Source of the DNA: Bacteroidetes bacterium CG12_big_fil_rev_8_21_14_0_65_60_17
Lineage (GTDB): Bacteria > Bacteroidota > Rhodothermia > Rhodothermales > UBA10348
Assembly (NCBI GenBank): GCA_002787815.1
Contig: PCUY01000043.1
Coordinates: 121,657 to 154,064, forward strand
Direction: 5' to 3'
DNA length: 32,408 nucleotides
Both the position numbers and the translations under genes were made by a program. How positions within the stretch are numbered: position 1 is the stretch's first letter; the number at the start of each line of letters is the position of its first letter. Below are positions 3,247-20,968 of the stretch, piece after piece. Under the pieces are notes generated by a model. It saw nothing but the letters and a program-made list of their open reading frames with translations, had not been told where the DNA came from and did no database searches.

Positions 3247-3894
3247 ATGTCCTGGCCTTTCGATATCGACGGCTGCCTGCAGCATCTGATCGCATCCGAT
3301 CCGGCACTCGGCCGTCTTGTCCGCAGGATAGGCCCTGTCACGCTCACGCCGCGCACCGACGAGCCGCCGCTTGACGCACTGGTTCGGAACATCGTGTACC
3401 AGCAGCTCTCGGGAAAAGCCGCATCGACAATCCATGCGCGCCTGCTGGCCCTGACAGGGCACCCGCTACAGCCGCAACGTATCCTGGACACGCATCCCGA
3501 TGCGCTCCGTTCGGCGGGACTCTCGCGTGCCAAAACCACAGCCATTATTGACCTCGCCGTACACGCTGCCGAGGGTCACATTCCAGATGCCGCCGACATG
3601 AGTGCCATGGACAATGCGTCCATCGAGGCGTGTCTGACACGTGTAAAGGGCATTGGTCCGTGGACCGTCCAGATGTATCTGATGTTCTGCCTCGGACGGC
3701 CCGATGTGTTTCCCGCATCGGATCTGGGAATTCGCAAGGGGATGGCCCGGCTCTACGGGCTCGACGAACTGCCGTCACCGGCCGACGCCACGGACGCATC
3801 CATCCCCTGGAAACCCTACCGCACCATTGCCTCCTGGTACCTCTGGCGCAGCCTGGATATCACGGCTGACGCACTACCGGCCGCCGGAACGTGA
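3247..3894 (+). CDS. DNA-3-methyladenine glycosylase II (AlkA-type, HhH-GPD)
   Basis: A 215-residue base-excision repair glycosylase that removes alkylated bases such as 3-methyladenine. The helix-hairpin-helix signature V133-K-G-I-G-P-W-T140 is followed by the catalytic Asp, D159. The W139 to D159 spacing of 20 equals the W218 to D238 spacing of E. coli AlkA. An upstream IVYQQLSGKAA segment (about residues 49-59) is also typical. The protein lacks AlkA's extra N-terminal domain, so it resembles the short HhH-GPD glycosylases (Mag/AfAlkA type). The frame is open much further upstream, but the ATG at 3247 begins the conserved domain, and earlier starts would overlap the divergent membrane-protein gene. 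The 3' end overlaps the convergent methyltransferase gene by 35 bp. Confidence 0.93.
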   Translation: MSWPFDIDGCLQHLIASDPALGRLVRRIGPVTLTPRTDEPPLDALVRNIVYQQLSGKAASTIHARLLALTGHPLQPQRILDTHPDALRSAGLSRAKTTAIIDLAVHAAEGHIPDAADMSAMDNASIEACLTRVKGIGPWTVQMYLMFCLGRPDVFPASDLGIRKGMARLYGLDELPSPADATDASIPWKPYRTIASWYLWRSLDITADALPAAGT

Positions 3895-4582
3895 CCACGT
3901 GCTGCATGGGCAGGATGTCGAGCGTGTCGAACCACTCGAAGCCGGCGGCCTCCATTTCGAGTCGGATCTGCTCCTCGGACATGCGGTGTAGCGGCGCGAC
4001 GGGAATGGTGTCGTCTTCTCCGCGGTATTCAACCACGACAAGCCGGCCTCCGGGCCGGAGCGAGCGCAGTATGTGGGCCATCATTTCCTGTGGATGCGAA
4101 AATTCGTGATATGACGACACGATGAGGACCAGGTCGAGGCGTCCTTCCGGAAGGGATGGATTGTCCACAGCGCCCAGAACGGGTTCGACGTTCCGCGCCC
4201 CGAGCCGCTCGGCACGGGCGACAAGGGTGTCGATGAGCGCCTCGTGTACCTCCACGGCATAGACGCGGCCGTGTGGTACGCGCTCCGACAGTGGAAAGGT
4301 GAAAAAGCCGGTACCCGCTCCGATATCCGCCACGCGATCCGAGGGAGTAAGTCGCAGGGCGGCAAACAACCGGCCGGGCAGTTCTTCAGCGTCCCTTTCG
4401 GGTCGATCGAGCCAGACGGCGCCGTGCTCGGACGACATGACGTCTGCAATTTCCCGGCCCATCCAGGTATTCCTGTCGGACTCACTGCTGCATGCGGTCA
4501 GCGCGAACGCCAGAACAGCAGCCGCCATGATGACAACACCCGGAACAGGGGCCTTGAAAACGCGAGAAAGTCCGGTTAACAT
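3860..4582 (-). CDS. Exported class I SAM-dependent methyltransferase, putative lipoprotein
   Basis: A 240-residue protein. An N-terminal hydrophobic segment (residues 13-30) ends in a lipobox, L28-T-A-C31, followed by a linker and a Rossmann-type methyltransferase domain. Motif I (VADIGAGTGFF) is intact; further elements are YAVEVHE, where the acidic residue would bind the ribose, LDLVLIVSSYHE, and LRPGGRLVVVEYRG. The conserved WMGREIADVMSSEHGAVWLDRPER block just after the signal matches a known subgroup of methyltransferases that often carry signal peptides. The substrate is unknown. An exported SAM enzyme is odd because SAM is a cytoplasmic metabolite. The start at 4582 is the first ATG and gives a complete lipoprotein signal. 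The gene is divergent from the T9SS cluster across about 100 nt and overlaps the glycosylase gene tail to tail. Confidence 0.85.
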   Translation of the reverse strand: MLTGLSRVFKAPVPGVVIMAAAVLAFALTACSSESDRNTWMGREIADVMSSEHGAVWLDRPERDAEELPGRLFAALRLTPSDRVADIGAGTGFFTFPLSERVPHGRVYAVEVHEALIDTLVARAERLGARNVEPVLGAVDNPSLPEGRLDLVLIVSSYHEFSHPQEMMAHILRSLRPGGRLVVVEYRGEDDTIPVAPLHRMSEEQIRLEMEAAGFEWFDTLDILPMQHVVTFRRPVVRQP

Positions 4583-4634: not shown

Positions 4635-4685
4635 CACTGTTCACGGTTTTCGGTGCATTACGCCGCCGCCCGACCCAAGTACTGC

Positions 4686-6884
4686 ATGAGTTCCCGCTAC
4701 CGTTCCATCCTGTCTGTTGCAAGCCTGACCGCCGTCCTCTTGACAGCGACTGGCATTGCCGCGCCCGAGGCGAGCGCGCAGGCATCGTTCGAGGAAGCCC
4801 TCATTGACGTGGGAAACGTCGGTATTACGGTCACGAACGCGGGTTTCGTGGGGCGCTCGAATGTCCGTAACAACCCGACCGGCAATCCGTCTTTCGAGTT
4901 TCCGCTCAATTCGGGCGTTGAACACCTGTTTGAAGCCGGTCTCTGGATCGGGGCCCGGCGTTCGGACGGTACAGTCACGGTCCGAACCGGTGCCATTACC
5001 TCATCGGGGGGCTACTCTCCGGGTGCCACCGGGTACGAATTTGCGCAGAATCAGCTTTTCAGAACGCGTTCGTCACTCCCTACGTCGGAGGCCTTCACGC
5101 GCGATGCCGTGAGCCACCAGGACCTTCTCACGGCGTTCGAGGATACGTCCCGGGTGCTGCCGAACACGTCCATCCAGCTTCCCGATGTCGCCGGCCGCCT
5201 TGGCATGCGTGTGGAAATGTCCACGTTCGCCTGGAATTTTCCTTTCACGGAATCGTTTGCCATATTGAACTTTGACATCATCAATACCTCGGCGGCGGCC
5301 TGGGAGGATGTTTACGTGGGCCTGTTCCACGACCTCGTCGTACGCAATGTGAATACGACGAATGACACCGGCGGCGCCTTCTTCAACAAGGGTGGACTCG
5401 GCTACATTGACTCGCTCCAGACCATGTATGCGTTCAATGCAGGGGGCACGGAAGGAACGCTGAACACGTACGGCTCCGTAGCCGTTCTTGGTGCCGAATG
5501 GCGGGATCCAGCAACTGGCCGCAAGCGTTTTTTCCACCCGGCCGTGGCCGACGATTTTGTGGCCGACGGACTGCAGCCACCTGTTGTCAACCCGCGCTGG
5601 TGGCTCTTCTCCGGTGGCAGTGACGAACTGAACCGGCCTGGCACGGACGATGAGCGGTATCGCCGCATGTCGACGCCCTTCCCGAACCCGGCTGAGTTCG
5701 GTTCGGAAGCGGAGTTTGAAGCTGCCCAGGAAGCCTGGTTCACGCGCCTGCGGACAGATGGACAGATTTCGGCGGGGAACTGGATTGGGCTCACGCCCAT
5801 GGGGCCGGTGCCGCAGGTGCTGCCGGGCGACACGCTCCAGGTTACGTTCGCGCTCGTGGCCGCGCTCAAGCCCGAGGAATTCCAGGGCCCGGGCGGAAAA
5901 TCCATCGATACGCCGGAAACCCGCGCCCTGCTGGCCAACAATATCCAGTGGGCACGCCGTACGTACGGCGGCGAGGACAACAATTTCAACGGTCGGCTCG
6001 ATGCGGGTGAGGATGTCAACGGTAACGGCGTCCTGGACCGGTATCTGATACCGGAGCCGCCCGCATCTCCCCGTGTCCGGGTTGAATTCGAGCGGGACCC
6101 GACAACCGATGAGCCGGTGGTAGCGCTCTACTGGGACCGCACGGCCGAGGAGTCCATAGACCCTGTGACGGGCGAAATGGACTTTGAGGGCTACCGGCTT
6201 TACCGCTCCGATCCCGGGGATGACCGGGGGGGCAACATCGCGGATGCCGCTTCGCTGATTGCACAGTATGACATTGCCGGCAACCGAACCGGATTCAATA
6301 ACGGATTCAGCGAGGTTGAACTCGATGAGGCCCGCGTCTTTGATGGGGACCCCACAGCATACTGGTACCGGTTTGAAGCCCGGGACCTTCGGAACGGCTG
6401 GCAATACCTGTTCGCGGTTACGGCTTTTGACCGGGGAGATCCCGACGCAGGCCTCGATCCCTTCGAGTCGTCCCGCGTCGCGAACAGTATCCGGGTCTTC
6501 CCGGGAACGCCCGCCGACGAGACCGGCGATCAGAAGGTGGGTGTCTATCCCAATCCGTACCGCGTCAATGCGGCGTGGGACGGGGATTCAAACCGGACGC
6601 GCAAACTGAATTTTTACAATCTCCCGCCCCGGTCCCAGATCCGGATCTATACGCTGGCGGGCGAAATCGTAGCGACACTCGATCACGACGCGGAGACGTA
6701 CATCGGGGATACCCGGTGGTTCGACGACTTCAGCGCTCCTGGTCGCATCCAGCCGGGCGGTGAACACTCCTGGGACCTGTTGTCCGACAACGGCCTGGGG
6801 CTTGCTGGAGGCCTGTACCTGTTCACAGTGAAAGACCTTGACGACGGCGACGTTCAGCGTGGCAAGTTCGTCATTATCAAATAA
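4686..6884 (+). CDS. Large secreted protein with Por/T9SS-like C-terminal sorting domain
   Basis: A 732-residue secreted protein. A signal peptide spans about residues 1-30 and ends in EASAQA. The long N-terminal part begins with an IDVGNVGITVTNAGFVG segment and a GVEHLFEAGLWIGAR motif, seen in uncharacterised secreted proteins of Bacteroidota and related phyla. A calcium-binding-like loop, DNNFNGRLDAGEDVNGNG, lies in the middle, followed by a fibronectin-III-like stretch (VALYWDRTAEESIDPVTG onward). The last 110 residues contain VGVYPNPYRV and end with GGLYLFTVKD and GKFVIIK, matching type A sorting domains. Expected location: outside the cell or on its surface after T9SS export. I chose the ATG at 4686 over the one at 4653 because it gives a compact signal peptide. 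It is 17 nt upstream of a second T9SS cargo gene. The function is unknown. Confidence 0.82.
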   Translation: MSSRYRSILSVASLTAVLLTATGIAAPEASAQASFEEALIDVGNVGITVTNAGFVGRSNVRNNPTGNPSFEFPLNSGVEHLFEAGLWIGARRSDGTVTVRTGAITSSGGYSPGATGYEFAQNQLFRTRSSLPTSEAFTRDAVSHQDLLTAFEDTSRVLPNTSIQLPDVAGRLGMRVEMSTFAWNFPFTESFAILNFDIINTSAAAWEDVYVGLFHDLVVRNVNTTNDTGGAFFNKGGLGYIDSLQTMYAFNAGGTEGTLNTYGSVAVLGAEWRDPATGRKRFFHPAVADDFVADGLQPPVVNPRWWLFSGGSDELNRPGTDDERYRRMSTPFPNPAEFGSEAEFEAAQEAWFTRLRTDGQISAGNWIGLTPMGPVPQVLPGDTLQVTFALVAALKPEEFQGPGGKSIDTPETRALLANNIQWARRTYGGEDNNFNGRLDAGEDVNGNGVLDRYLIPEPPASPRVRVEFERDPTTDEPVVALYWDRTAEESIDPVTGEMDFEGYRLYRSDPGDDRGGNIADAASLIAQYDIAGNRTGFNNGFSEVELDEARVFDGDPTAYWYRFEARDLRNGWQYLFAVTAFDRGDPDAGLDPFESSRVANSIRVFPGTPADETGDQKVGVYPNPYRVNAAWDGDSNRTRKLNFYNLPPRSQIRIYTLAGEIVATLDHDAETYIGDTRWFDDFSAPGRIQPGGEHSWDLLSDNGLGLAGGLYLFTVKDLDDGDVQRGKFVIIK

Positions 6885-6901
6885 CCAACCTGAGAGAACC
6901 C

Positions 6902-9076
6902 ATGAGAAAACTGGCTACCACCTGGATGCTGCTGCTCGTTGCGGCGCTTGCCATCCAGACAACAAATGCACAGACTGTTGCAACCATTGCTGAAATCAAT
7001 ACCATCCCGCAGGACGGAATCGACGCCGCCAATGCGCTCGGCGGTGACATCACGTTCGACGACATCGTGGCCAACATCCGCTCCCCGTTCGAAGGCGAAA
7101 CGGTGCAGTTCACGGCCGTCGTGATATCCGACCCGCGCAACTCGGGACTTTCGAGTGTCAACTCCTCGACCGGCGAGCCGTCCCGTGTCCACTACTTCGT
7201 GCGCGATGTGGCAGCCGCGACGGACGGCTTTGACGGGCAGGTCATGCAGGTCGTGGATGGAAACTTCCGCGCCACGGGCTCGCTGAACCTGTTTGTAGGT
7301 GACGTAGTACGCTTCACGGGCGACATCGCCTACTTCGGTGTGGGCATCCAGTTCTCTCCCTCCAGTGTAGAGTTCCTGGGAACGTACCAGGACCAAGGCC
7401 TGCCAGCTTCGATTCTCGAGCCGCGGACCGTCACCCTTGCCGATCTCAATCAGCCCACGGGGGACAACCAGGGACGTGCCAACTGGGACAACTTCAATGC
7501 CCTCCATCAGGACTTCGTACGCATTGAAGGCGTCCAGGTATTTCAGTCCCCAAACCGGACAGATGACCGCCCCAACTGGGCTCTTCGGGACCTCTCGACA
7601 AGTGCTGTCATCTCAAACGATGATATATCACTGCAGTATCGCAACGACCGCACGGATTACCCGTCCGACTTCAACGCAACGAATGATTTCATAGCGCCGC
7701 CAGTAGGCGCCACGGTGAACGTACAGGGATTTGCACTTCTCAGGTCCAGTTTCGACCCATTCGGAATCGGTGATCCGGCGGTCGCGCTGATCAAAATAAC
7801 ACCCTGGGAAGATGCCGACCTCGTCGTTACGCAGTCGCCTCCAAACATCTCGAACATTGAACTGCCTTCCACGATACCGGGAAACAACCCGGTCACGATA
7901 ACTGCGAGTATTGTTCCGGACCAGACGCGGTCGCTTACGTCCGTCTCGCTTGACTACAGCACATCCGGCGGCGCCTCGGGCTCGGTTGCGGGCGTTGATG
8001 CAGGCAATGACACATGGACGTTCGAGATACCGGCACAGGCCGATCGCTCATTCGTGATTTTCACGATCAGTGCTACCGACAGTGAGGGTGCCGTTTCAAC
8101 GACTGTCGAGAACTCCTACCGGGTCCTGTTTGATGGTATTACGGCCGTGCGCGATATACAGGAGCCGGCCGCCGGATCCAGCAGCTCGCCCTTCGATCGG
8201 CTCGTGGCCGACATGGACCTTGAGGTAACCGTCATGACGGACCCCGCAACGGGCGTAATCGGGGCACAGGACGGAACCAGTCCATGGTCCGGCATCATCC
8301 TGAGCAGTTTCAACAATCCCTTGACGGCTGCCGGTGTAAACCAGGGCGACGTAATCCGGATCACAAACGCGGAGGTGCGTGAGAATTTTGGTCTGACGGA
8401 ACTTCGGAACTACACGTTCGATGTTGTCTCAACCGGCGGCGACATCTTCAATCCCATCGTGCTTCCAACGAGTGCACTCCAGGATTCAGACGTAGCCGAA
8501 TCGCTTGAGGGCATGTTCGTCCGTGTGGAAAACGTAACCGTGACGGCGACGAATGCGGATGCTCCGAGCGGACCATTCGGTGAATTCAACGTTTCCAACG
8601 GCACGGAAGACGATGCGCTCCGGGTGGACGATGCTTCCAGCAACGTATCATACGAGGGAGGTAATCCGGGTACCGTTTTCGCGGAAGGTGAAACGCTGGC
8701 ATTCGTACAGGGTACACTCTGGTTCTCGTTCAGCAACTTCAAACTGCAGCCTGGCAGCTTCGACGATATCGGCGAGGTCACGAACGTCGCCAATGAAGAC
8801 GATGTCCTGCCGCGCGTGACGTCGCTCCAGCAGAACTATCCGAACCCGTTCGCGGGTGAAACGGAAATCCGGTATGAGGTCGCAACCTCGGGACCGGTCA
8901 CGCTCGACGTATACGATGTGCTGGGACGCAAGGTGATGACGCTGGTCTCGGAAAACCAGACCGCCGGAGAACATTCGGCACGTTTCCAGGCGGACGGCAT
9001 GGCCGGTGGGCTCTACCTCTACCGCCTGCAGTCCGGTGAGAAAACCCTGACGCGCACCATGATGCTCGTCAAGTAA
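6902..9076 (+). CDS. T9SS-secreted protein with OB-fold-like nuclease-accessory domains
   Basis: A 724-residue secreted protein. The signal peptide (residues 1-23) ends at TTNAQ. Two regions resemble the OB-fold accessory domains of extracellular nucleases (YhcR/ExeM type): residues about 40-290, with EGETVQFTAVVISDP, VRIEGVQVF and VNVQGFALLRS, and residues about 410-630, with DLEVTVMTDPATGVIGAQDG, GVNQGDVIRITNAEV, MFVRVENVTV and FVQGTLWFS. Between them lies an Ig-like segment (about 315-405). The final 90 residues form a textbook type A sorting domain: LQQNYPNPFAGETEIRYEV, LDVYDVLGRKVMTLV, GGLYLYRLQSGEK and a C-terminal VK. No catalytic nuclease motif is visible here; the catalytic partner could be the phosphatase/nuclease-fold protein at 15999-17141. 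A GAGAG stretch just before the ATG could be a weak ribosome-binding site. The domain assignment is by pattern and should be checked with a profile search. Confidence 0.75.
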   Translation: MRKLATTWMLLLVAALAIQTTNAQTVATIAEINTIPQDGIDAANALGGDITFDDIVANIRSPFEGETVQFTAVVISDPRNSGLSSVNSSTGEPSRVHYFVRDVAAATDGFDGQVMQVVDGNFRATGSLNLFVGDVVRFTGDIAYFGVGIQFSPSSVEFLGTYQDQGLPASILEPRTVTLADLNQPTGDNQGRANWDNFNALHQDFVRIEGVQVFQSPNRTDDRPNWALRDLSTSAVISNDDISLQYRNDRTDYPSDFNATNDFIAPPVGATVNVQGFALLRSSFDPFGIGDPAVALIKITPWEDADLVVTQSPPNISNIELPSTIPGNNPVTITASIVPDQTRSLTSVSLDYSTSGGASGSVAGVDAGNDTWTFEIPAQADRSFVIFTISATDSEGAVSTTVENSYRVLFDGITAVRDIQEPAAGSSSSPFDRLVADMDLEVTVMTDPATGVIGAQDGTSPWSGIILSSFNNPLTAAGVNQGDVIRITNAEVRENFGLTELRNYTFDVVSTGGDIFNPIVLPTSALQDSDVAESLEGMFVRVENVTVTATNADAPSGPFGEFNVSNGTEDDALRVDDASSNVSYEGGNPGTVFAEGETLAFVQGTLWFSFSNFKLQPGSFDDIGEVTNVANEDDVLPRVTSLQQNYPNPFAGETEIRYEVATSGPVTLDVYDVLGRKVMTLVSENQTAGEHSARFQADGMAGGLYLYRLQSGEKTLTRTMMLVK

Positions 9077-9102
9077 CGCCTGCACAAGATGGAAGGATGT
9101 GA

Positions 9103-9130
9103 CCCTGGGGCGCCCTGCGGCGCCCCAGGG
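9103..9130 (+). terminator. Perfect GC-rich stem-loop, probable intrinsic terminator
   Basis: The arms CCCTGGGGCGCC (9103-9114) and GGCGCCCCAGGG (9119-9130) pair perfectly over 12 bp around a CTGC loop and are followed by CATTTCCTTT, a moderately T-rich tail. It sits 27 nt after the stop of the T9SS cargo gene. It splits the cluster into two transcription units, or thins transcription into the downstream genes. Because the hairpin lies inside the longest open frame of the next gene (GTG at 9099), it also argues that the gene starts further downstream. Confidence 0.75.
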
Positions 9131-9170
9131 CATTTCCTTTACCTCGACCACAGACCGAAGTCGTTCAACC

Positions 9171-10811
9171 TTGTCCGATCACGCATCATTTTCCTCCCAC
9201 AGGCCATGGACCCTGACCGCCTTGTCAGTGGCCCTGCTTTTTGGAGCCTCACTTTTCGGCTGTGACAGCGATTTCAAGGGCAGTGCGCTCGAAAACCTGC
9301 CACCGAACACGGCACTCAGCGTGCGGGACGAATCGCTTGTCGACAACCTGGCGGATGACAACCGACTGCTGTCAACGCTGCGCCTCTCATGGTCAGGTGA
9401 CGATCCGGACGGCTTCGTAATCGGGTTCGACGTACGCGTCTTTCCTGCAACATCGAGTCCGGACAGCGAGGACCTGTGGGTATTCACGACGCGCAACGAT
9501 TCCCTCCTCCTGCTCCCCCTTCCCTCCGGGGAATCCATCGCCGACGTGGTCGTGGAAGTACGCGCCGTCGACAACGAAGGAGCCAAAGATCCCACACCGG
9601 CGCGCAGCGTCTTCCCCATCCAGAATTCGCCACCCACAATCCGATTCAGCCAGTTCGAACTGCCGCCTGACACGACCTTTCCGGTCGTGAGTTTTGCCTA
9701 CGTGCCTGACGACCCGGATGGCATACAGAACCTGCAGTCTGTCGGCGTGAGCCTCAATGACAGTACCTCGTTCGTCGAGATACCACCCGAATTTGATTTC
9801 GTGACCCTGGTTGGAGATCAGAACCAGGTCGCTACCGCCGACGAAGTGGATGCGCGCCTGTTTCTGGGCCGGGGTGTGGAGGCCACGTCACTCGTGGTCC
9901 CCGGTATGCGTCTTGACGCAGACAATACATTCTACATCCGGACAACCGACCAAGCCGACACCACAAGTACCATAGAGCGCTTTACCTGGCGCGTGAAGCG
10001 GAACGCATCGGACATCCTCTATGTGAATGACTACCGGCTTTCCACCAATCAAGACGTAAAGAATTACCACCTCGATATTCTGGCCCAGTTCCTGCCCCCC
10101 GGTATGCCCGTCGACACGTGGGACATATCAGAGCCCTTCACGACGGGCTCGTCCGGAACCGTGCCGCGCTCTTCCGCGCTGCCGCCTGTTGCCGAGCCCA
10201 TGCTCCGGCTGACGCTATCGCTCTACCGGTTCATCTATTGGGTATCGACCAGCACGACGGGCAATGTCGGAACAGACAATATGCCCTTCGTTGCCCCCGC
10301 CATGGCTGAATTCTTCGGGAATGGCGGCAAAATGCTCGTACACAGCCCGGTGAACGTACCCACTGTGGATACGGATTTCACAGACAACGCCGCCGTGCTG
10401 CTGCTCCCACTTTCTGAACCCCTGGTACTTCCCGATTCCGTGCGCCGGCTCGAACTGGCCAGTGGTGCGCCCGTTACGCCTACTGCAACAGGCACATCAC
10501 TGGGCCTCCCGGCCCTCGAATCCAGCCGCTTTTTCATCAACCTGCGTCCGTATCGTTCCACAGGCGCCAACATTGAATCCCTCTACACCGGTGCATTCCG
10601 CTTCCGCTCGGCCAGTGGGGGCAGTGGCGACTGGACGGACCCGAACACGGTCGCATCCATCAGTGCCGACCGGCGCATTGCGCTCATGGCACTACCGCTC
10701 GTCAATGATCTGAACAGCACCGAGAATTTCACTGCGCCCGGAGACACCGATCCGGCGGGTCTACTCGTCGTGCACGCGCTTCTTCGCGCCCTGGAATTTC
10801 CAAGTCGATGA
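9171..10811 (+). CDS. Lipoprotein with Ig-like repeats and a GATase-like C-terminal fold (unknown function)
   Basis: A 546-residue lipoprotein. From the TTG at 9171 the signal peptide has a basic HRPW n-region and a lipobox, L28-F-G-C31-D. Two Ig/fibronectin-like domains follow (about residues 45-150 and 155-285), with SWSGDDPDGFVIGFDVRV and VEVRAVDNEGAKDPTPA, the type of repeat seen in Bacteroidota surface proteins. The C-terminal half (from about 285) starts DILYVNDYR and contains RFIYWVS, AEFFGNGGKMLVHSP and a final LLVVHALLRALEF. This is the strand/helix rhythm of a class I glutamine-amidotransferase-like fold, with no obvious Cys nucleophile, so probably non-catalytic. The longer open frame from GTG 9099 runs through the terminator hairpin, so I prefer the TTG start. 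It is coupled by a 4-nt ATGA overlap to the TonB-dependent receptor gene, so it may be that receptor's surface partner. Confidence 0.72.
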   Translation: MSDHASFSSHRPWTLTALSVALLFGASLFGCDSDFKGSALENLPPNTALSVRDESLVDNLADDNRLLSTLRLSWSGDDPDGFVIGFDVRVFPATSSPDSEDLWVFTTRNDSLLLLPLPSGESIADVVVEVRAVDNEGAKDPTPARSVFPIQNSPPTIRFSQFELPPDTTFPVVSFAYVPDDPDGIQNLQSVGVSLNDSTSFVEIPPEFDFVTLVGDQNQVATADEVDARLFLGRGVEATSLVVPGMRLDADNTFYIRTTDQADTTSTIERFTWRVKRNASDILYVNDYRLSTNQDVKNYHLDILAQFLPPGMPVDTWDISEPFTTGSSGTVPRSSALPPVAEPMLRLTLSLYRFIYWVSTSTTGNVGTDNMPFVAPAMAEFFGNGGKMLVHSPVNVPTVDTDFTDNAAVLLLPLSEPLVLPDSVRRLELASGAPVTPTATGTSLGLPALESSRFFINLRPYRSTGANIESLYTGAFRFRSASGGSGDWTDPNTVASISADRRIALMALPLVNDLNSTENFTAPGDTDPAGLLVVHALLRALEFPSR

Positions 10812-13717
10812 TGACAAGATACCTGTTCCTCACGGCCGTATTTCTCCTGGCCGGTTTACATGAAAGCCTGGCCCAGGGCTCCCTGGTCGGACGCGTAATC
10901 GACACCGAGTTCAACGACCCGCTGATTGGCGTGAACATCATTGTAACGGGCACGACGAGTGGCGCCGCGACGGACGCGGATGGACGCTACCGGATAGACA
11001 ATCTGCGAGCCGGACAGTATTCGGTCCGTATTTCCTATATCGGATTTGAGACGAAGCTTTTCACGGAGGTGCAGATACGCGACGGTGAGGAAACCGTGCT
11101 CAACGTGGAGCTCGGAGAAGCCGTGCTTTCGACGGAAGACGAGGTGGTTATCATCGGTGAGCGTCCCCTTGTGGACGTCGAGGAATCGGCCTCCACAACG
11201 CGAATGACGCGCGAGCAGCTCGAGGCCGCGCCGCTCCGCGACGTCCAGGATGCGGTCTCCTCACAGGTGGGAATCATGCAGGATCCAACCGGACTTTACA
11301 TCCGGGGCGGCCGTGCCAATGAAACCGGATTCATTGTGGATGGCGTATCGGCGAAGGATCCGCTCGCCGGAACGGGCTTCGGACTCGACCTGGGATCCAA
11401 TTCCTTTCAGTCCATCGAAGTGACCACAGGTGGCCTGGGCGCGGAGTTCGGAGACGTCACGTCAGGCGTCGTGAGCGTGCAGACGCAGGATGGCACGGAC
11501 ACCTTCCAGGGCTTTTTCAACCACAAGCGCGACCACCTGGGCTTCAATGACGATGCCGCATCCAATTTCAGGGAGGAGGTATTCGAATTCAATCTGAGTG
11601 GTCCCATCGTCCGTGGTAAACTGCGCTTCTTTCTGTCCGGACAGGTGCAGCTTTCCGACGGTTTCACACGCCAGGAATCCACGCCCGAACAGGTCCGCAC
11701 CTCTCTCCTCGACGGAACATTTCTCCTGCCCCGTACGGGAAACCGCTGGAACGGCATCTCCAAGCTCACCTATGAGTTGAGACCGGGAATGAAGCTCCAA
11801 GGTTCGTACCAGCGCTCGTTCACCGTGAACCAGAATACACGCATGCTCCAGGTGACCGGGAACGACGCCATCGTCCAGCCCGGTTTCCAGTATGCCTTCA
11901 TTCTGGATCCAGACAATGCCAATACCTACGCACACGACAATATTATATCGTACGTCAAGTGGTCCCATGTGCTCGGAGACCGCTCTTTCTATGATATCCA
12001 GGTCTCACGGCTCTTCACCCGGCTCCGGGCGGATGCCAACGGCAGACGGTGGCGGCCCGAGGCGGTCACATCCGAGCTCGACCCGGCCAGCATTGTGACA
12101 TTTCCGCCGAATATTTTCGTGGACAACGACGGCGAGCCCCTGGACCCGAATGCGCTTTTCGTTCTTCCTGGTCCCGGTTTGGTCAACAATGGAGGAATTG
12201 CAACGCAGTTCCATGACCATTTTGCAGAAGAATGGACAGCCCGGCTCTCCTACACGAGGTTTTCCGTATCCAAAAATCACCAGACCAACATCGGTCTGGA
12301 AATGAAATTCAACGACTACCAGTGGATTGATGTCATTCGTCCGTGGGTCGGCGCACCCATCGGCTCCGACACCGAGGGCACGAGCACGAACCGCCTGGGT
12401 GAGTCTTCTGACATCTGGCGCGTCAAACCAAGGCGTGGCGGGCTCTGGGTAAGCCACCAGATCCGCTTCCGCGGGCTTGTGGCCAACCTCGGAACGCGCC
12501 TCGAATACTGGTCTCCCGGCAAATACGTGGATGACCTGATCGACGACCCGCAGGCGCCCATTCTGGACAGCGTCCGGGATTCCTACAGAGACGGTACGGT
12601 CAATGTGTTCGGACTGGCCACCAAGTTCCGAATGCTCCCAAAAGTACGCGTTTCCTTCCCCATCCAGGAGAACCGGGTGCTCTTTTTCAACTACGGCCAC
12701 TCGACCATCCTGCCGCACCCGACCTTCGTCTACACGGGCCTGGATCCCTTCTTCCAGGATCGATCGTTCTTCTCGGACCTTGGAAACCCGGATCTGGATC
12801 CCGAAGTCGACATCAGTTACGAACTGGGCCTGCGCACGCAGTTCACCAGTAACGACGTGCTCACGTTGACGGGGTTCTGGCGGGACAAGTTTGACTTCAT
12901 TACCGTGCAGAATGTGACCGTGAAGGATCCGACCGGAAGGGACGTCACACGTGCATTCCGCATCAACGGAGACTTCGCGCGCGTGCGCGGCATTGAGGCG
13001 AGTTACCTGAAACGCATTCGCCAGTCGTTCCAGGGACAGGTATCGGCTTCCTATTCACGCGCAACCGGACTGAGCTCAACGAACAATGACGCTCTCAGTC
13101 AATTCCTGGCGGACGGCGACATCGACAACACATTTGAAACGCCACTTGCCTGGGACCGGCCGGTCGATATCAAGGCGAGCGTTACCTATTCGTACGACAA
13201 GGCATCACCACTGGGTGGCGTACCGGGGCTCAATAAATTCCGGGTATTCCTCTCTACCACCTGGCGGAGCGGCCAACGCTTCACGCCGGTCGAATTCCGG
13301 GGCAACCAGATCAACCCGTTCACGGGAGAGGCCGACTGGCGCCCCATTTATGAGCGCGTCCAGGACCCGGCTGAGCGCTTCTCGGAGATCGGCGACGCCT
13401 GGTGGTGGTTCGACCTCAATGCACAGCGCACGGTGCCCGTGGCGGGCACGAACGTGGTATTCACCCTGGAGGTCACGAACCTCTTCAACCAGTCGAACAG
13501 CATTATAGTGAATCCGGTGACGGGTAAAGCTTTCCCTGATATCGACCCGAACAGCATAGACATGACAGCGCTGCGGGGTAACCGTGATTTTGACGTTCCC
13601 ACGGGAACGCGTGATCTCCGGTTCGATGATCCCGATTCGGGCGGCCTGCCTCCCCTCAACCCGGCGCGGTTTCTGCCTCAACGCCACATCGTCCTGGGGG
13701 TGGCCTTCCGATTCTGA
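10808..13717 (+). CDS. TonB-dependent outer-membrane receptor with carboxypeptidase-regulatory-like domain
   Basis: A 969-residue outer-membrane protein. The signal peptide is residues 1-23 (ends SLAQ). A carboxypeptidase-regulatory-like beta-sandwich (about 25-105) contains GRVIDTEFNDPLIGVNIIVTG and DADGRYRIDNLRAG. The plug domain (about 115-235) has TREQLEAAPLRDVQDAVSSQ, YIRGGRANETGFIVDGV and SIEVTTGGLGAEFGDVTSG. A long beta-barrel ends in VLGVAFRF with the usual C-terminal Phe. It should take up a large or scarce substrate using TonB energy; the substrate cannot be read from the sequence. No SusD gene is next to it; instead the gene sits between an unrelated lipoprotein (ATGA overlap) and a PorV-like protein (1-nt overlap), an arrangement pointing to surface secretion or scaffolding as much as sugar uptake. 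Confidence 0.93.
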   Translation: MMTRYLFLTAVFLLAGLHESLAQGSLVGRVIDTEFNDPLIGVNIIVTGTTSGAATDADGRYRIDNLRAGQYSVRISYIGFETKLFTEVQIRDGEETVLNVELGEAVLSTEDEVVIIGERPLVDVEESASTTRMTREQLEAAPLRDVQDAVSSQVGIMQDPTGLYIRGGRANETGFIVDGVSAKDPLAGTGFGLDLGSNSFQSIEVTTGGLGAEFGDVTSGVVSVQTQDGTDTFQGFFNHKRDHLGFNDDAASNFREEVFEFNLSGPIVRGKLRFFLSGQVQLSDGFTRQESTPEQVRTSLLDGTFLLPRTGNRWNGISKLTYELRPGMKLQGSYQRSFTVNQNTRMLQVTGNDAIVQPGFQYAFILDPDNANTYAHDNIISYVKWSHVLGDRSFYDIQVSRLFTRLRADANGRRWRPEAVTSELDPASIVTFPPNIFVDNDGEPLDPNALFVLPGPGLVNNGGIATQFHDHFAEEWTARLSYTRFSVSKNHQTNIGLEMKFNDYQWIDVIRPWVGAPIGSDTEGTSTNRLGESSDIWRVKPRRGGLWVSHQIRFRGLVANLGTRLEYWSPGKYVDDLIDDPQAPILDSVRDSYRDGTVNVFGLATKFRMLPKVRVSFPIQENRVLFFNYGHSTILPHPTFVYTGLDPFFQDRSFFSDLGNPDLDPEVDISYELGLRTQFTSNDVLTLTGFWRDKFDFITVQNVTVKDPTGRDVTRAFRINGDFARVRGIEASYLKRIRQSFQGQVSASYSRATGLSSTNNDALSQFLADGDIDNTFETPLAWDRPVDIKASVTYSYDKASPLGGVPGLNKFRVFLSTTWRSGQRFTPVEFRGNQINPFTGEADWRPIYERVQDPAERFSEIGDAWWWFDLNAQRTVPVAGTNVVFTLEVTNLFNQSNSIIVNPVTGKAFPDIDPNSIDMTALRGNRDFDVPTGTRDLRFDDPDSGGLPPLNPARFLPQRHIVLGVAFRF

Positions 13718-14736
13718 TGCTACAGATCCGATCATTTCTCCTGCTGCTGGGCCTGCTGTTGGCAGCGGCCAGTACAAATACGACAAGCGCACAGCTGCTT
13801 CCGTCCCTGGGTGACGAACGCGCCGGTACGTCCGGCTTCCAGTTCCTCAAAATCCCGGTCGATGCCCGAAGTGCGGCTCTCGGCCAGACCGTTGTGGCCT
13901 CTGCGTCCGATGTGGGTGCCATTTTCTGGAACCCCGCCCTTGTAGCACAGTCCCCGGGCATCCAGGCTGGCTTCTTTCACACGGAATATTTCGCCGATGT
14001 CGTACTTGACTACGCGGGCATCATCTATCCCATCCCAGGAACGAACATGGCCATCGCATCGAGCATCCAGACCATGGATTCGGGCGAGATGGACGTAACC
14101 ACCGAATTCCAGCCATTCGGAACCGGTCAAACGTTTGAGCTGCGGGATCTCGCCCTGGGCGTCACATTCTCACAGCAGTTGACCGACCTTTTTTCCTATG
14201 GGGTCACGTCAAAATACATTCGTGAGAGCGTCGCAGGGCTCACGACCAACACGGTTGTATTCGATGTCGGCTTCTTTTACGCCGTAGGCGCCACGGGACT
14301 GGACCTGGCCGTCTCCGTACGCAACTTCGGTGTCGACGGACGGCCGGACGGTACCATCGAACGCACGGTCATAGGCCCCAACCCCACCGTACAGGAAACC
14401 GACTTCGAGTCCATCACGCCACCGACCACGTTTCACATGGGTGCCATGTACGAGCTCCTGAGGGACCGTCCGGACCACATGGTGCAGATCTCGGCGCAAC
14501 TCAACAATCCGAATGACAACGCGGAAAACTGGAATGTTGGCCTTGAGTATGGTTGGGACGACCTGCTTTTTTTGCGCACGGGATATCGCTTCGCCATCGA
14601 GGAATTTGAAACACCGAGCTTCGGTGTGGGCCTCAAACTGCCCATCTCCGGCCCTGATCTTCGATTCGACTACGGCTTCAATCGGCTCGATCGCCTTGGA
14701 AACGTAAATCGCGTAGGCCTGAACCTGACGCTGTGA
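13717..14736 (+). CDS. PorV/PorQ-family outer-membrane protein
   Basis: A 339-residue outer-membrane beta-barrel of the PorV/PorQ (UPF0164/FadL-like) family. The signal peptide is about residues 1-26. The family signature follows: GTSGFQFLKIPVDARSAALG (about 36-55), then ASDVGAIFWNPALVA (about 68-82), and a series of alternating strands to a final FNRLDRLGNVNRVGLNLTL. In type IX secretion, PorV shuttles cargo from the translocon to the attachment complex and recognises C-terminal sorting domains. Its position in one operon with several T9SS cargo proteins suggests a cargo-specific PorV-like shuttle, but this genome may also hold a separate core porV, so this may be a paralogue. Its ATG overlaps the receptor stop in TGATG. 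Confidence 0.88.
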   Translation: MLQIRSFLLLLGLLLAAASTNTTSAQLLPSLGDERAGTSGFQFLKIPVDARSAALGQTVVASASDVGAIFWNPALVAQSPGIQAGFFHTEYFADVVLDYAGIIYPIPGTNMAIASSIQTMDSGEMDVTTEFQPFGTGQTFELRDLALGVTFSQQLTDLFSYGVTSKYIRESVAGLTTNTVVFDVGFFYAVGATGLDLAVSVRNFGVDGRPDGTIERTVIGPNPTVQETDFESITPPTTFHMGAMYELLRDRPDHMVQISAQLNNPNDNAENWNVGLEYGWDDLLFLRTGYRFAIEEFETPSFGVGLKLPISGPDLRFDYGFNRLDRLGNVNRVGLNLTL

Positions 14737-15989
14737 TGAGAACAAGAACCTTTTTTCTGCTGCCGCTGCTTTTCCTGGGCGTCCTACTGGCCGGGTGCGA
14801 CAGTCTGTTCGGCTCAAAGGACGATGCCGTAACGGACGAAATTTTCGATGCCGGTCGCGCCGAGCCATCGCTCATCAACGAGGTTGAGTACGTTCCCCTC
14901 TTCCCGTTCTTTACCCAGGGGTTCTCCGGGACATTTACTTCGCCCAGGGATGTCTACGTGGGATACGACGAACTGATCTACGTGGCAGACGATGACGGCG
15001 TTCACATCCTGGATCTTTCCGGTCGCGCCGCGGCCCTGATCGCCATTCCGGGAGGTGCCACGAGCGTCATACAGGATCGGCGGATGCACCTGTATGTGAC
15101 AGCGCGGCGCGACACGGTGCTCGCCGGGGAGTCCTGGAATTTGCCTGTGGTCTATCGCTTCGATGGCATTTCGAGTGGATCGCCCCGCATGGCCGATATC
15201 ATCTGGCACCCGTTCGACGATGATTCACGACGGTTCAACCGCCCCGACCCCGTTCCGTCGGACGAGGATGTTGCCTTCACCAGTGTCGGAGTGCTGCCTG
15301 ACAACAATGTCTATATCTCGCGTACCGGCCCCGTCAATGACTCCGGATCAATCCTCCTTCCACACAATATCATCCTCGAATTCAGGCCCGACGGCTCTCC
15401 CCGACAGGCCCTGATATCCCTCAGCCCGACCAACCCGAGTCTCAGGAGCGCTGTGTATCCATCTACGGTCACCACGTTCGTGCATCCGCCACAACGAGCA
15501 TTTTTTGGCACCGACCGCCACTTCCTCGTCGGTCAGACTCCCGGACCAGCGGGTGGTGGCCCCCTCCGCTTCTCGGCCCTTTCCATCCGCGTCGTTGACA
15601 CGCCGAATGGAACGGAATTCCAACCTGATGCTCAGAAGCTGCAAATCACGTTCAACCCGGAGGCCGGCAACTCCTTCCTCTATGATGAATTCAAATTCGA
15701 CCGCGTGGGTGACATCACGGTTGCCATGGATGGCACTAATTTCATTTTCGTGGTCGACGCGGGGGCCGACAGTCTGCACGTGTTCACAGGCCAGGGAGTG
15801 GAAGGGGTGAGCCCCCCTCCAGGCTCATCAAGCACATTGCCCGTGAACGTATCCTTTGGAGGCTCGGGAGACGGCTCCGGTCAATTCAATAACCCCCTCG
15901 GAGTAGCCTACTTTAAACGCATCGTGTACGTGGCCGACACTGGAAACAACCGTATATCCCGTTTTCGCCTGAATACGGACTTCGAGTAA
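14736..15989 (+). CDS. NHL/beta-propeller-like lipoprotein
   Basis: A 417-residue putative lipoprotein. From the ATG at 14736, a lipoprotein signal with L18-A-G-C21-D is clear; the GTG one codon upstream would also work, but the ATG gives the same TGATG coupling as the preceding gene pair. Repeated segments such as SPRDVYVGYDELIYVADDDGVHILDLSG, DITVAMDGTNFIFVVDAG and NNPLGVAYFKRIVYVADTGNNRISRF are the NHL/SMP-30 type of propeller blade, probably four to six blades. Such lipoproteins act as surface binding scaffolds. Being last in the tightly overlapping block (9171-15989), it may join the receptor and PorV-like protein in an outer-membrane complex. Function is inferred only from fold and position. 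Confidence 0.8.
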   Translation: MRTRTFFLLPLLFLGVLLAGCDSLFGSKDDAVTDEIFDAGRAEPSLINEVEYVPLFPFFTQGFSGTFTSPRDVYVGYDELIYVADDDGVHILDLSGRAAALIAIPGGATSVIQDRRMHLYVTARRDTVLAGESWNLPVVYRFDGISSGSPRMADIIWHPFDDDSRRFNRPDPVPSDEDVAFTSVGVLPDNNVYISRTGPVNDSGSILLPHNIILEFRPDGSPRQALISLSPTNPSLRSAVYPSTVTTFVHPPQRAFFGTDRHFLVGQTPGPAGGGPLRFSALSIRVVDTPNGTEFQPDAQKLQITFNPEAGNSFLYDEFKFDRVGDITVAMDGTNFIFVVDAGADSLHVFTGQGVEGVSPPPGSSSTLPVNVSFGGSGDGSGQFNNPLGVAYFKRIVYVADTGNNRISRFRLNTDFE

Positions 15990-15998
15990 GGTATATCC

Positions 15999-17141
15999 AT
16001 GCACGTCCGCCTTTGCCTGTTCGTCATCATTTTTATCCTCGGCCCGTGGATCGCGACCGGACAGGTACAGAGCGTTGGCGGCGCCGCGACGCTCGACGTA
16101 GCCACGTGGAATATCGAGTGGTTCGGAAGCCCATCGAACGGGCCTTCGGACGAAGCCAGGCAACACAGCAATGTGCTGGAAGTTTTCTCCGCCTCGGATA
16201 TCGACCTCTGGGCCGTCCAGGAGATAGCAAGTCCGTCTGCCTTCGAGGATGTCCTGACCGCTCTTGGGAGTACCTATGAAGGCGTACTGGCCACCCAGAG
16301 CGGTGAGCAGCGCATTGGATTCGTCTACAACCGGGACGTCATCCAGCCGCTCCGGATTGAACATATCCTGACGGATTTCACGCATGCGTTCGCCGGTCGC
16401 CCCCCGCTCGTGATGGAGGCCCTGGTCACGCTCCCTGACACGACCTTCAATGCCACCTTCGTGACGCTTCACATGAAGGCGTTTTCGGATCTTGATTCCT
16501 GGTCCCGTCGACAGGATGCGTCCTCGCGACTGAAATTCAGACTGGACTTCCTTGAGTCCGCGACCAACCTCATAGTGCTCGGCGACTACAACGACGAACT
16601 CCGCGCATCCATCACCAACGGCCAGGATTCACCGTATACCAATTTCATGCAGGATACGGCCAATTACAGGTTCTCCACACTGGCTCTCGAAGATGCCGGC
16701 GTATGCACGTTCTGCCGCTCGCCGACATCCACCATTGACCACATCCTGTTGAGTGACGAACTGTTCGCTGCAGGGGAAGCCGGATCGACAGACAGACACA
16801 GCTCGGTCATACAGGGAATCCCGGGCTTTTTGAGCAACACGTCCGACCATGTGCCGGTCTTCACGCGGTTGCTTCCGGTGGTTGTCAATACGTCGACAGA
16901 CATACATCCGGAGAAGACCACGCTGGAGCTCTGGCCCAACCCCGTGCACGCATCGCTGCATATCAGTGGCCTGCCGGCCAACACGTCCGTGAATGTCTTT
17001 GATGCACTCGGCAGGCGCGTGCACGAAGCCCAAACCGCTTTTTCGTCCACGCTGGAATTGGATGTAGTTCGGCTGCCGCCCGGTGTCTATGTGTTGAGGA
17101 CAGATCCCCTGGGCGAAGTCCGTATATTCACGAAGTTCTGA
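15999..17141 (+). CDS. T9SS-secreted endonuclease/exonuclease/phosphatase-family enzyme
   Basis: A 380-residue secreted metal-dependent phosphodiesterase or nuclease of the EEP (DNase I/exonuclease III-like) superfamily. The signal peptide is about residues 1-21. All core motifs are present: N38 in ATWNIEWFG, the metal-binding E75 in WAVQEI, H158 in LHMKAF, D196 and N198 in LGDYND, D247-H248 in TIDHIL and the general base pair D283-H284 in SDHVPV. The C-terminal 80 residues (ELWPNPVHASLHISGL, VNVFDALGRRVHEA, PPGVYVLRTD, final KF) form a type A sorting domain. The WNIEWFG variant is typical of extracellular nucleases. It follows the NHL-like lipoprotein by 9 nt, so is likely cotranscribed. The likely job is digestion of extracellular DNA; RNA, nucleotide or phospholipid substrates are not excluded. 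Confidence 0.88.
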   Translation: MHVRLCLFVIIFILGPWIATGQVQSVGGAATLDVATWNIEWFGSPSNGPSDEARQHSNVLEVFSASDIDLWAVQEIASPSAFEDVLTALGSTYEGVLATQSGEQRIGFVYNRDVIQPLRIEHILTDFTHAFAGRPPLVMEALVTLPDTTFNATFVTLHMKAFSDLDSWSRRQDASSRLKFRLDFLESATNLIVLGDYNDELRASITNGQDSPYTNFMQDTANYRFSTLALEDAGVCTFCRSPTSTIDHILLSDELFAAGEAGSTDRHSSVIQGIPGFLSNTSDHVPVFTRLLPVVVNTSTDIHPEKTTLELWPNPVHASLHISGLPANTSVNVFDALGRRVHEAQTAFSSTLELDVVRLPPGVYVLRTDPLGEVRIFTKF

Positions 17142-17512: not shown

Positions 17513-18013
17513 TTACAGATCGTAGGCCGCTTTCACGGACTCCCAGCTCTGCAGGTCCACTGCCTTCTTGCCAAAGACGCTTCCGTCAATCACGACCAAC
17601 TTAACCTCACGGTCCGGCTCGTTCAGCAGATCTATGGCAGGTGTCGAAGCCTCATAGAATACCTCAAGAAACCCTGCATCGTAACCGAAGCCAAGCGATA
17701 TCGTGTAATCGACCGCCGGGAGGTCGGCCGATTCTACGCCTATGGTCCAAGGCATGGCGGTCCATGTCCCCTGGTCACGGAAGAACATCAATACGCCCCC
17801 TTCATCCACGACCAGAGGCGTCAGATCCGGAACGTCGTATTGGACCGACGCGACGGAACCATTTACCTCTGCGTCGTCCATGGAGAAGACGAAATTCAGT
17901 GAAAAAACGTTGGCATTGCCGGGAGGGCCCGGTGGTCCTGTCGGCCCGGTCCCGGTTTCCATGTTGCAGGCTGCGAGCGACAGGGCAAGAAGAAGCACGG
18001 GGATCCTTTGCAT
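17513..18013 (-). CDS. Small lipoprotein with a short collagen-like GXY motif
   Basis: A 166-residue putative lipoprotein. The signal peptide has a lipobox L13-A-A-C16, followed by a short collagen-like run, GTGPTGPPGPPG (about residues 21-32), and a 130-residue beta-rich domain with no family I can name (FSLNFVFSMDDAEVNG, TISLGFGYDAGFLEVFYE). Short GXY runs right after a lipobox are a recurring design in Bacteroidota, where the collagen-like part may act as a trimer-forming stalk. The ATG at 18013 is preserved behind a good ribosome-binding site (AAAGAGG, 8 nt upstream), one of few in this window; the frame runs open for another 51 nt upstream. It stands alone, convergent with the nuclease gene and divergent from the guanylyltransferase gene. 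Confidence 0.75.
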   Translation of the reverse strand: MQRIPVLLLALSLAACNMETGTGPTGPPGPPGNANVFSLNFVFSMDDAEVNGSVASVQYDVPDLTPLVVDEGGVLMFFRDQGTWTAMPWTIGVESADLPAVDYTISLGFGYDAGFLEVFYEASTPAIDLLNEPDREVKLVVIDGSVFGKKAVDLQSWESVKAAYDL

Positions 18014-18216
18014 AAAAATAACCTCTTTCTGAAGAACACGGTGTGTTGCCACAATCCCCTTCAAATGAGAGGCCAGTTGTCACTTGACGCGATAATGACA
18101 TTCCCTGACACGTTGCGCGGGCAGAGCTGTAGCCTATCCTGGACAAGCATTGCCCGAAACCTGGGGCAGGGTCCCCTGTTGATTTTGGCCCGCTCTTCAT
18201 TCAAACCACCACATAC

Positions 18217-19293: not shown

Positions 19294-19370
19294 ACTTCAC
19301 GTAACCTGATTGCCGTCAGAACGTACGCACGCCGGTTGCAAAGTTGCCGTCCTGTTGCCAAGTCCTATCC

Positions 19371-20948
19371 ATGACACGTGTCCTCTTTTTACTGGTGCTG
19401 ATGAGCCTTGCCGACACCCCCGCGTTGCATGCGCAAGACGTCGGTCAGAATAATCCGGACGAGGACTTCCCCGGTGAGTTGGTCATCACGCTCGATGAGG
19501 CCATTCAGATCGCACTCGCCCGGAATATTGCACTGGAACAGGCGCGCCTCAATGTGCAGAATGCCAGTGCACAGGTTCGTGAAGGATGGGCAGAGCTTTT
19601 CCCGCAGGTGGATGTTTCGTCCTCATACACGCGGAATTTCCGGACGGCCAATCCCTTCACGGGGTCCCAGGCGGGTGGATTCTTCCAGTCGCTCGGATTC
19701 ATTGACTGGTTGAGTTTCAACGAACAGGCCCGGACGGACGGAGACGACGCTACGTCTCCGATTACGGTCCAGGAGTTCTTTGCCCGCCAGCAGGCCGGCC
19801 TTGAGGCCGCAGGAATAGAACAGGACGGGGGTGGAAATCCGTTTGGCGTCCCCAATCAGTTCCTGACTGGCCTGTCCATCACACAGAGCCTGTTCGACGG
19901 GCGCGCGTTTTTCGGAGCACGTGGCGCCTCGAGGTGGCTCGAACCGTTTACCGAAGCCGGGCTGAACAGGCAACAACAACTCCTCGTTGACGAGGTCAGG
20001 CGGAGATTCTACGGTGCACTTCTGGCCCAGGCCCGTGTGGACGTATCGCGTGAGTCGGTTGCACGTGCACGGCGTACACTGTCTGAATTATCCAGGCAGG
20101 TGGAGGAAGGTACGGCCCCGAAATTTCAGCGAATGACGGCCGCTGTCGAGTTGGCCAATCTGGAATCGTCGCTCACGCAGCGCCAGACCGACCAGGCTGC
20201 ACAGATCGACGCGCTCAAGCTGAGCCTCGGTATCAACGTGTCGCTCGACATGAAACTGCGCGGGGCTCTCGAAGCCGATGCGCTCCGTTTTCCCCCACCG
20301 GATCCGGAGACCTCGCAGGCATCCCTGGCCCTGACACGACGACCGGATCTCTCACAGGCCCGTATCAACATGGAACTCGAACGCATTCAGCTCAAAGTAG
20401 CGCGGGCCGAGTTCATGCCGACGCTCGATGCGTTCTTCAATTACAATTTCCAGGGCAGTGTGCCTGACAACAGGGTCGTTACTTCTTCCGACCCGGAAAA
20501 CCCATTTGCGTTCTCCTCCGAAGAGCTCGGCTTCTTTTCAGATGCCTGGTGGGATCGGACAGTAAGTGGCGGATTCCGGGTGACCTGGAATGTTTTCAAC
20601 GGTATGGCGTCGCGCCAACGCCTTGAACAGCGAAAAATCGCGCTCCGCCAGGCGGAACTCGATGCTGAATTTCTGGAGCGTACCGTCCAGACGGAAGTCA
20701 AGGCAGCCCTCAGGGATGTTTCCTCTGCAAGGACGCGCATGATTTCCCAACAGGACAACGTACAACTTGCCGAGACCAATTTTGAATTTGCAGAGGCACG
20801 CCTTACAGAAGGCGTAGCCAGCCCCATCGAGGTCAGAGAAGCCAGTAACCAGTTGGACGAAGCGCGTCTGAATTTCCTGCAGGCTACCCACGACTACCTC
20901 GTTGCACTCAGCGCTTATCAGACAGCATTGGGCGAGCCCACCCCGTAG
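19371..20948 (+). CDS. TolC-family outer-membrane efflux channel
   Basis: A 525-residue outer-membrane factor of tripartite efflux pumps. The signal peptide is about residues 1-20 (ends ALHAQ). The mature part has the two TolC halves: ITLDEAIQIALARNIALEQARLNVQNASAQV (about 36-66) begins the first coiled coil, and RRPDLSQARINMELERIQLKVARAEFMPTLDAF (about 322-354) the second, with long Ala/Gln/Glu-rich helices between and a final VREASNQLDEARLNFLQATHDYLVALSAYQTALG. The ATG at 19371 gives the signal peptide directly; a start 27 nt earlier would only add a non-signal prefix. It is first of a four-gene set with adaptor, permease and Mpl, the adaptor following by 20 nt. Confidence 0.94.
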   Translation: MTRVLFLLVLMSLADTPALHAQDVGQNNPDEDFPGELVITLDEAIQIALARNIALEQARLNVQNASAQVREGWAELFPQVDVSSSYTRNFRTANPFTGSQAGGFFQSLGFIDWLSFNEQARTDGDDATSPITVQEFFARQQAGLEAAGIEQDGGGNPFGVPNQFLTGLSITQSLFDGRAFFGARGASRWLEPFTEAGLNRQQQLLVDEVRRRFYGALLAQARVDVSRESVARARRTLSELSRQVEEGTAPKFQRMTAAVELANLESSLTQRQTDQAAQIDALKLSLGINVSLDMKLRGALEADALRFPPPDPETSQASLALTRRPDLSQARINMELERIQLKVARAEFMPTLDAFFNYNFQGSVPDNRVVTSSDPENPFAFSSEELGFFSDAWWDRTVSGGFRVTWNVFNGMASRQRLEQRKIALRQAELDAEFLERTVQTEVKAALRDVSSARTRMISQQDNVQLAETNFEFAEARLTEGVASPIEVREASNQLDEARLNFLQATHDYLVALSAYQTALGEPTP

Positions 20949-20968
20949 CACCCATATTCTTGCACCTC

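Follow-up and report, generated by a model that had tools for sequence, protein, structure and literature searches.

Surveys of sediments and sludge report that Bacteroidota have an important part in the degradation of extracellular DNA (PMC8289736, PMC11495043). The passages of these surveys that were searched count nucleases and describe no outer-membrane route of uptake. The extracellular nuclease ExeM depends on its OB region as well as on its EEP domain (PMC6085458). The SGBPlev protein of the levan utilisome consists of two Ig-like domains followed by a ThuA-like C-terminal domain (PMC7618045), and the Flavobacterium Pus system couples SusCD-like pairs to phosphodiesterases under phosphate limitation (PMC8115612). 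A precedent for barrel-anchored cargo of the type IX secretion system (T9SS) is also described, for type B tails and PorP-like proteins (PMC9143113). Here we describe a cluster of seven genes in a 32,408-nucleotide stretch of a Rhodothermales genome (contig C14:121657-154064, in an assembly of 2.9 Mb), which is termed the window. The cluster is real and widely conserved. The locus is best read as similar to a polysaccharide utilisation locus (PUL), with a PorV-family partner and no SusD. As a function, a TonB-powered surface acquisition system of PUL type is proposed, whose polymer is most likely extracellular nucleic acid, another phosphodiester being possible; a rough probability of 0.55 is attached to this reading.

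Gene order and conservation

The cluster spans positions 4653-17141 and consists of seven co-directional, tightly packed genes, listed in Table 1 and named below by their first positions. The spacings, from 4653 onward, are 17, 22, -4, -1, -4 and 9 bases, and would fit one transcript. Six of the genes had been described in an original prediction made from the DNA letters, and their open reading frames are confirmed, all on the + strand with tight or overlapping spacing. The prediction had the cluster begin at 6902, which is too late: the gene that ends 17 bases before it is part of the cluster in nearly all relatives.

Table 1. Genes of the cluster, with positions in the window
Gene product	Positions	Strand	Remarks
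Secreted protein with T9SS-tail-like C terminus, first conserved-core gene	4653..6884	+	743 aa, start codon uncertain
T9SS cargo with four OB domains and Ig domain	6902..9076	+	724 aa; family models and AlphaFold2
Lipoprotein (LP), two FN3/Ig domains and ThuA-like domain	9099..10811	+	predicted structure, conserved Cys
TonB-dependent receptor (TBDR)	10808..13717	+	969 aa; CarboxypepD_reg_2 and Plug domains
PorV/PorQ-family outer-membrane barrel	13717..14736	+	NF033709
NHL/beta-propeller-type lipoprotein	14733..15989	+	one NHL repeat; conserved C terminus
EEP-superfamily enzyme (nuclease or phosphatase fold) with T9SS tail	15999..17141	+	PF03372, TIGR04183

Most Rhodothermales loci of sufficient length have the seven genes in this order. 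Among 114 Rhodothermales genomes, the OB and EEP genes are found together in 55 and are both missing in 52, with OB alone in two and EEP alone in five. Presence of the OB and NHL genes agrees in 110 of the 114, and shared ancestry inflates the nominal P values of co-occurrence in this set. Two cases are informative: the near-complete genome G037 has no OB, NHL or EEP gene and its six congeners have EEP and NHL, and in its family G058 alone has the full set of these genes. Where the block itself has no EEP gene, a separate contig carries it (G032-G034, G044, G045) or it immediately precedes the 4653 homologue (G046), and families that lack it as a neighbour still encode it elsewhere.

Outside the Rhodothermales it is six genes that keep their order (4653 homologue, OB protein, LP, TBDR, PorV-like barrel, NHL lipoprotein), both in Balneolales, Gracilimonas mengyeensis and Balneola sp. 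EhC07 included, and in metagenome-assembled genomes (MAGs) of Flavobacteriales. The genes that flank this core differ in these loci. Homologues of LP were found in 114 of 392 genomes sampled from the phylum, 60 of the 114 lying outside the class. The full six-gene order is present in about 42 of the 59 loci fetched from other Bacteroidota classes, and the remainder consists mostly of contig ends or lone LP homologues. Conservation is among the highest for the TonB receptor, which accompanies the other genes in nearly all loci read. Cultured carriers of the block are found in Roseithermus (L114), Gracilimonas (L165) and Balneola (L153). Because the gene order survives across orders and classes despite different flanking genes, the cluster is far beyond chance, and the gene set is ancient, with the same order across much of the phylum. 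The expectation that the genes stay together in relatives thus holds for all seven in Rhodothermales and for six in Balneolales and in most loci sampled from other classes, the EEP gene being variable.

Several loci depart from this arrangement. In L204 and L233 the core has no OB gene between the 4653 homologue and the lipoprotein. Two Chitinophagales MAGs (L176, L178) display the 4653-OB pair only, with LP, receptor, PorV-like and NHL genes not detected beside it. At L162:5184-9005 a single open frame of 1274 aa replaces the OB and LP genes; its C-terminal part matches LP, and it represents either a fusion or a frame read-through.

Enzymes at the position after the NHL gene

The 15999 protein carries an EEP domain (PF03372, 3.9e-10) and a T9SS type A tail (32.9 bits, cut-off 23). 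Its catalytic residues N38, E75, H158, D196, N198, D247, D283 and H284 are invariant in 18 sequences, so that the enzyme is complete, as originally proposed. The EEP gene is a variable add-on to the six-gene core. The NHL gene is readable in 48 out-of-class loci. The gene that directly follows it on the same strand encodes a T9SS cargo with a phospholipase D (PLD) core in 16 of them and an EEP cargo in five, often with an overlap of a few bases. Both HKD motifs are present in the PLD cargoes examined. The one PLD cargo searched against solved structures in the PDB (L190) has Zucchini/MitoPLD, endonuclease Nuc and NucT as relatives. A congeneric pair, L219 and L220, displays the exchange directly: the neighbouring genes are common to both, with 57-92% identity if the fast-evolving OB and LP genes are set aside, and the position is occupied by EEP in one and by PLD in the other, with the sorting tail as the only common part. 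The strongest clue to function is that two unrelated phosphodiesterase families recur at this one site. This also fits the nuclease theme of the original prediction, in that a PLD of the nuclease branch, another phosphodiesterase family, takes the EEP slot in relatives.

The same congeneric pair provides rates for single genes. Identity is 37% for the OB protein and 47% for LP, versus 81% for the receptor, 78% for the PorV-like barrel and 72% for the 4653 homologue. Such fast divergence of OB and LP is as expected for exposed parts in contact with substrate or phage.

An EEP orthologue, linked or unlinked, is present in all 15 Balneolales-type core-bearing genomes searched. The nine Balneolales EEP loci examined encode chains of ~600-900 residues with an OB pair N-terminal to the EEP domain (OB-OB-EEP-tail), one of the nine lying within a longer open frame. 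Pfam assigns this OB pair to DUF5689 in both chains scanned. A more distant EEP cargo is encoded directly upstream of the 4653 homologue in Flavobacteriales MAGs. OB pairs and an LTD protein accompany the enzymes.

The original prediction had regarded the locus as a possible two-part ExeM, with the OB folds on one chain and the EEP enzyme on another. This description suits the Rhodothermales only. As a general account a split ExeM is rejected, both because lineages with no adjacent EEP gene have the OB protein among the core genes and because the Balneolales EEP orthologues examined are single chains with an OB pair of their own. A separate case is G030:C24:41681-42723, where an EEP gene lies beside only the last 43 codons of NHL, an apparent relic of a lost cluster or else an assembly break.

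Families and predicted folds of the core proteins

Among the products of the block are two T9SS cargo proteins, 6902 and 15999, each with a sorting tail, and two lipoproteins, 9099 and 14733. The 6902 protein passes the type A tail model TIGR04183 (41.7 bits, cut-off 23) and has no Pfam match outside this tail. Pfam searches with 17 members of the OB family gave only marginal OB matches, PF01336 (E 0.012) and DUF5689 (E 0.24), in one member each, and structure prediction was therefore used. The AlphaFold2 model (mean pLDDT 91.8, pTM 0.65) displays OB1 at ~60-167, OB2 at ~172-311, an Ig domain at 312-411, OB3 at ~412-513, OB4 at ~514-628 and a C-terminal domain at 636-724. Whole-model Foldseek searches of both 6902 and 9099 were dominated by Ig chains, and domain ranges were taken from VIA-align; the tandem-OB protein Teb1 is among the Foldseek matches of 6902. 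By VIA-align, residues 22-167 match the OB fold of RPA (4gop_B; Z 9.8, rmsd 3.9, 104 aligned), residues 312-411 the Ig domain of Porphyromonas gingivalis peptidylarginine deiminase (Z 12.6) and residues 636-724 the PorZ tail (Z 9.3). The structural match to an OB fold concerns OB1, with OB2-OB4 assigned from predicted strands and profile similarity. Sub-domain profiles relate OB1 to OB3 with 97% probability and OB2 to OB4 with 95%, so that the protein appears to be a duplicated OB-OB unit around an Ig domain. The OB folds claimed for this protein are therefore upheld by model, RPA match and internal duplication; these folds and a shared neighbourhood in relatives were two of the three points on which the original prediction had staked itself, and both were found.

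Named relatives of the 6902 protein are found in Rhodothermales MAGs and in Roseithermus sacchariphilus. In L093 (G091) and in G092:C8 a tandem duplication of the OB gene forms a single long frame of ~1000-1338 aa.

The 4653 protein belongs to no Pfam family, and a profile search against solved structures gave no relative; a weak resemblance to the PorZ C terminus is seen, and identity to the Flavobacteriales copies is ~40%. The 9099 lipoprotein has an invariant Cys55 and a predicted structure of pLDDT 86, in which two FN3/Ig domains precede a ThuA-like domain. This C-terminal domain matches the ThuA-like structure 4jqs (Z 14.4) and SGBPlev (8aa2_G, Z 10.3). In its model, 9099 has the layout of a surface glycan-binding-type lipoprotein, a likeness of layout and fold only. 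At the end of the core, the C terminus of the 14733 lipoprotein is conserved, with LNTDFE in Rhodothermales.

The 10808 receptor scores 64.6 bits with the SusC/RagA model TIGR04056, which has a cut-off of 368; its best solved relative is RagA, over the N-terminal 210 residues only. No match to the SusD family was found among the seven cluster proteins. The 13717 protein passes the PorV/PorQ family model NF033709 (185 bits, cut-off 90) and fails the equivalog cut-offs of PorV, PorQ and PorV2, with 81.9 bits against 250 for PorV. The true PorV of this genome adjoins PorU on contig C9 (297.7 bits), and 13717 is a distinct paralogue. From this PorU-PorV neighbourhood it is likely that the genome has a working T9SS.

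Three further loci of the same genome combine a TonB receptor with a PorV-family gene. Their neighbours are GHL10 and amidase cargo in L019 (G000:C39:6000-25000), a LacI-type regulator, CBM20 cargo and an MFS sugar transporter in L020 (G000:C21:63000-82000), and GH3 and GH16 in L021 (G000:C67:8000-27000). Each has a longer relative of the 4653 protein (~1140-1190 aa as a class; 1139-1192 aa in these three) between the receptor and the PorV paralogue. All three resemble PorV-type loci for glycan utilisation that have no SusD. By analogy, the window locus looks like one of a family of PorV-type utilisation loci in which the enzyme would indicate the substrate.

As to the surroundings of the cluster, a divergent gene for an S-adenosylmethionine methyltransferase (3863-4582, -) lies directly upstream, and five Rhodothermales loci also have a recurrent upstream gene on the same strand. 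Downstream, a small putative lipoprotein with a collagen-like GPTGPPGPPG stretch (17513-18064, -) is found between the cluster and a sugar nucleotidyltransferase gene. A tripartite efflux operon follows (19344-25893, +), with a TolC-like outer-membrane efflux protein (OEP), an HlyD-type adaptor and an AcrB-type RND pump. A scan of the locus for promoters and terminators gave nothing clearly above shuffles, and no regulator is inferred.

Function of the locus and its relation to known systems

The mechanism proposed starts from features visible in the sequence, namely sorting tails, lipoboxes, receptor class, EEP active site and gene linkage, and from the predicted fold of OB1. The four-OB cargo and the three-domain lipoprotein would bind the polymer at the cell surface. 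The EEP cargo, or in other lineages the PLD-type nuclease cargo, would cut phosphodiester bonds, and the TonB receptor would import the pieces. The PorV-like barrel might dock or shuttle the T9SS cargo of the locus onto the complex. Nucleic acid taken up in this way could serve as a source of phosphorus, nitrogen or nucleobases. The weakest step in this proposal is the substrate; OB pairs, LTD, EEP and nuclease-branch PLD, taken together with the dependence of ExeM on OB and EEP, make nucleic acid the most likely one.

Several results weigh against nucleic acid as the polymer or against the locus as a unit of this kind. Orthologues of the OB protein are net acidic, with a mean of -8 charges per 100 residues, which sets them apart from typical OB proteins that bind nucleic acid and speaks against simple DNA capture. 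The EEP profile of 15999 matches phosphatases and deadenylases as well as DNases. In 27 of the 48 out-of-class loci neither EEP nor PLD directly follows NHL, and the core may thus do something else. The 5'-nucleotidase PF02872 is present in only 24 of 57 OB-bearing genomes and is not a consistent partner. A consensus promoter scan gave fewer sites than in shuffles, and no regulatory site was found.

Some of these points lend themselves to an unlikely alternative, that the locus scavenges phosphorus through TonB from other phosphodiesters (phospholipids, teichoic-type or cyclic compounds), with the EEP and PLD enzymes as lipases or phosphatases and the whole as an analogue of Pus. The acidic OB protein would suit it, both superfamilies include lipid-active enzymes, the EEP profile extends beyond the phosphatases, weakly, to sphingomyelinase 2, and PLD relatives bear the name cardiolipin hydrolase. 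Against this, the enzymes occur together with OB pairs and an LTD protein, as in the nuclease ExeM, the PLD cargo matches the Nuc/Zucchini/NucT group, and no lipid-binding family was found. About equally improbable is a six-gene core that serves as a general surface-assembly or polysaccharide system, whose T9SS-docking part is used by EEP and PLD cargoes as passengers. In its favour, the core has a far broader distribution than any adjacent nuclease, the paralogous TBDR-PorV loci appear to act on glycans, oligosaccharides are also among the ligands of OB folds, and LP is similar to a levan-binding protein. Passengers would hardly be expected to show the near-perfect co-occurrence of EEP and core in Rhodothermales and Balneolales, even when unlinked, or the repeated arrival of two unrelated phosphodiesterase families at the same slot; nor was a glycosidase family found beside core loci in the proteins scanned, the flanks not having been scanned systematically. 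That the locus merely secretes a nuclease to clear biofilm or extracellular traps, with no import and a receptor that serves something else, is very improbable. ExeM, Xds and other extracellular nucleases do shape biofilms, and T9SS-tailed cargoes reach the surface or the medium, but the close retention of the TonB receptor and the utilisome-subunit layout of LP speak against this reading.

Within the preferred reading of a PUL-like acquisition system, a more specific form can be proposed tentatively, at somewhat less than even odds: a TonB-dependent nucleic-acid utilisation locus found phylum-wide, with OB capture, interchangeable EEP or PLD enzymes, import of oligonucleotides, and a PorV-family barrel that replaces SusD and docks the locus's own cargo. 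On the same tentative footing, it would be the first such outer-membrane system. If true, a TonB receptor with swappable nuclease cargo would supply an outer-membrane uptake route for extracellular DNA, the PUL concept would widen beyond glycans, and PorV-family paralogues would gain a role beyond the core T9SS. Searches of the open-access literature gave no description of the cluster.

Compared with the PULs and the levan utilisome (PMC7618045), the locus has the TonB receptor, the surface lipoproteins, one of them with SGBPlev-like two Ig-like and ThuA-like C-terminal domains, and the logic of bind, cut and import. It differs in that there is no SusD match and the receptor is under the SusC/RagA cut-off, the enzyme is EEP or PLD instead of a glycosidase, the enzyme and OB protein are T9SS cargo and not lipoproteins, and a PorV-family barrel is part of the block. 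With Flavobacterium Pus (PMC8115612) it has in common that genes for outer-membrane transport of TonB type lie next to phosphodiesterases. Genes for a phosphodiesterase or phosphatase, a trait of Pus loci, are predicted here as well, EEP in the window and PLD in others. Pus consists of SusCD-like pairs and periplasmic enzymes under phosphate control, whereas the window locus lacks SusCD and its enzymes are predicted to be on the surface.

The OB pair and EEP domain are those of ExeM/YhcR (PMC6085458), and the Balneolales EEP orthologues share this architecture with a T9SS tail added. The window encodes OB and EEP as two chains, with four OB domains and a larger core, and in many lineages the OB protein is kept without a neighbouring EEP gene. 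As regards the secretion system, 13717 belongs to the PorV/PorQ family by its family model and falls outside the equivalogs. In the PorP-like precedent (PMC9143113), barrel anchoring involves type B tails, whereas here type A tails are combined with a PorV-like barrel.

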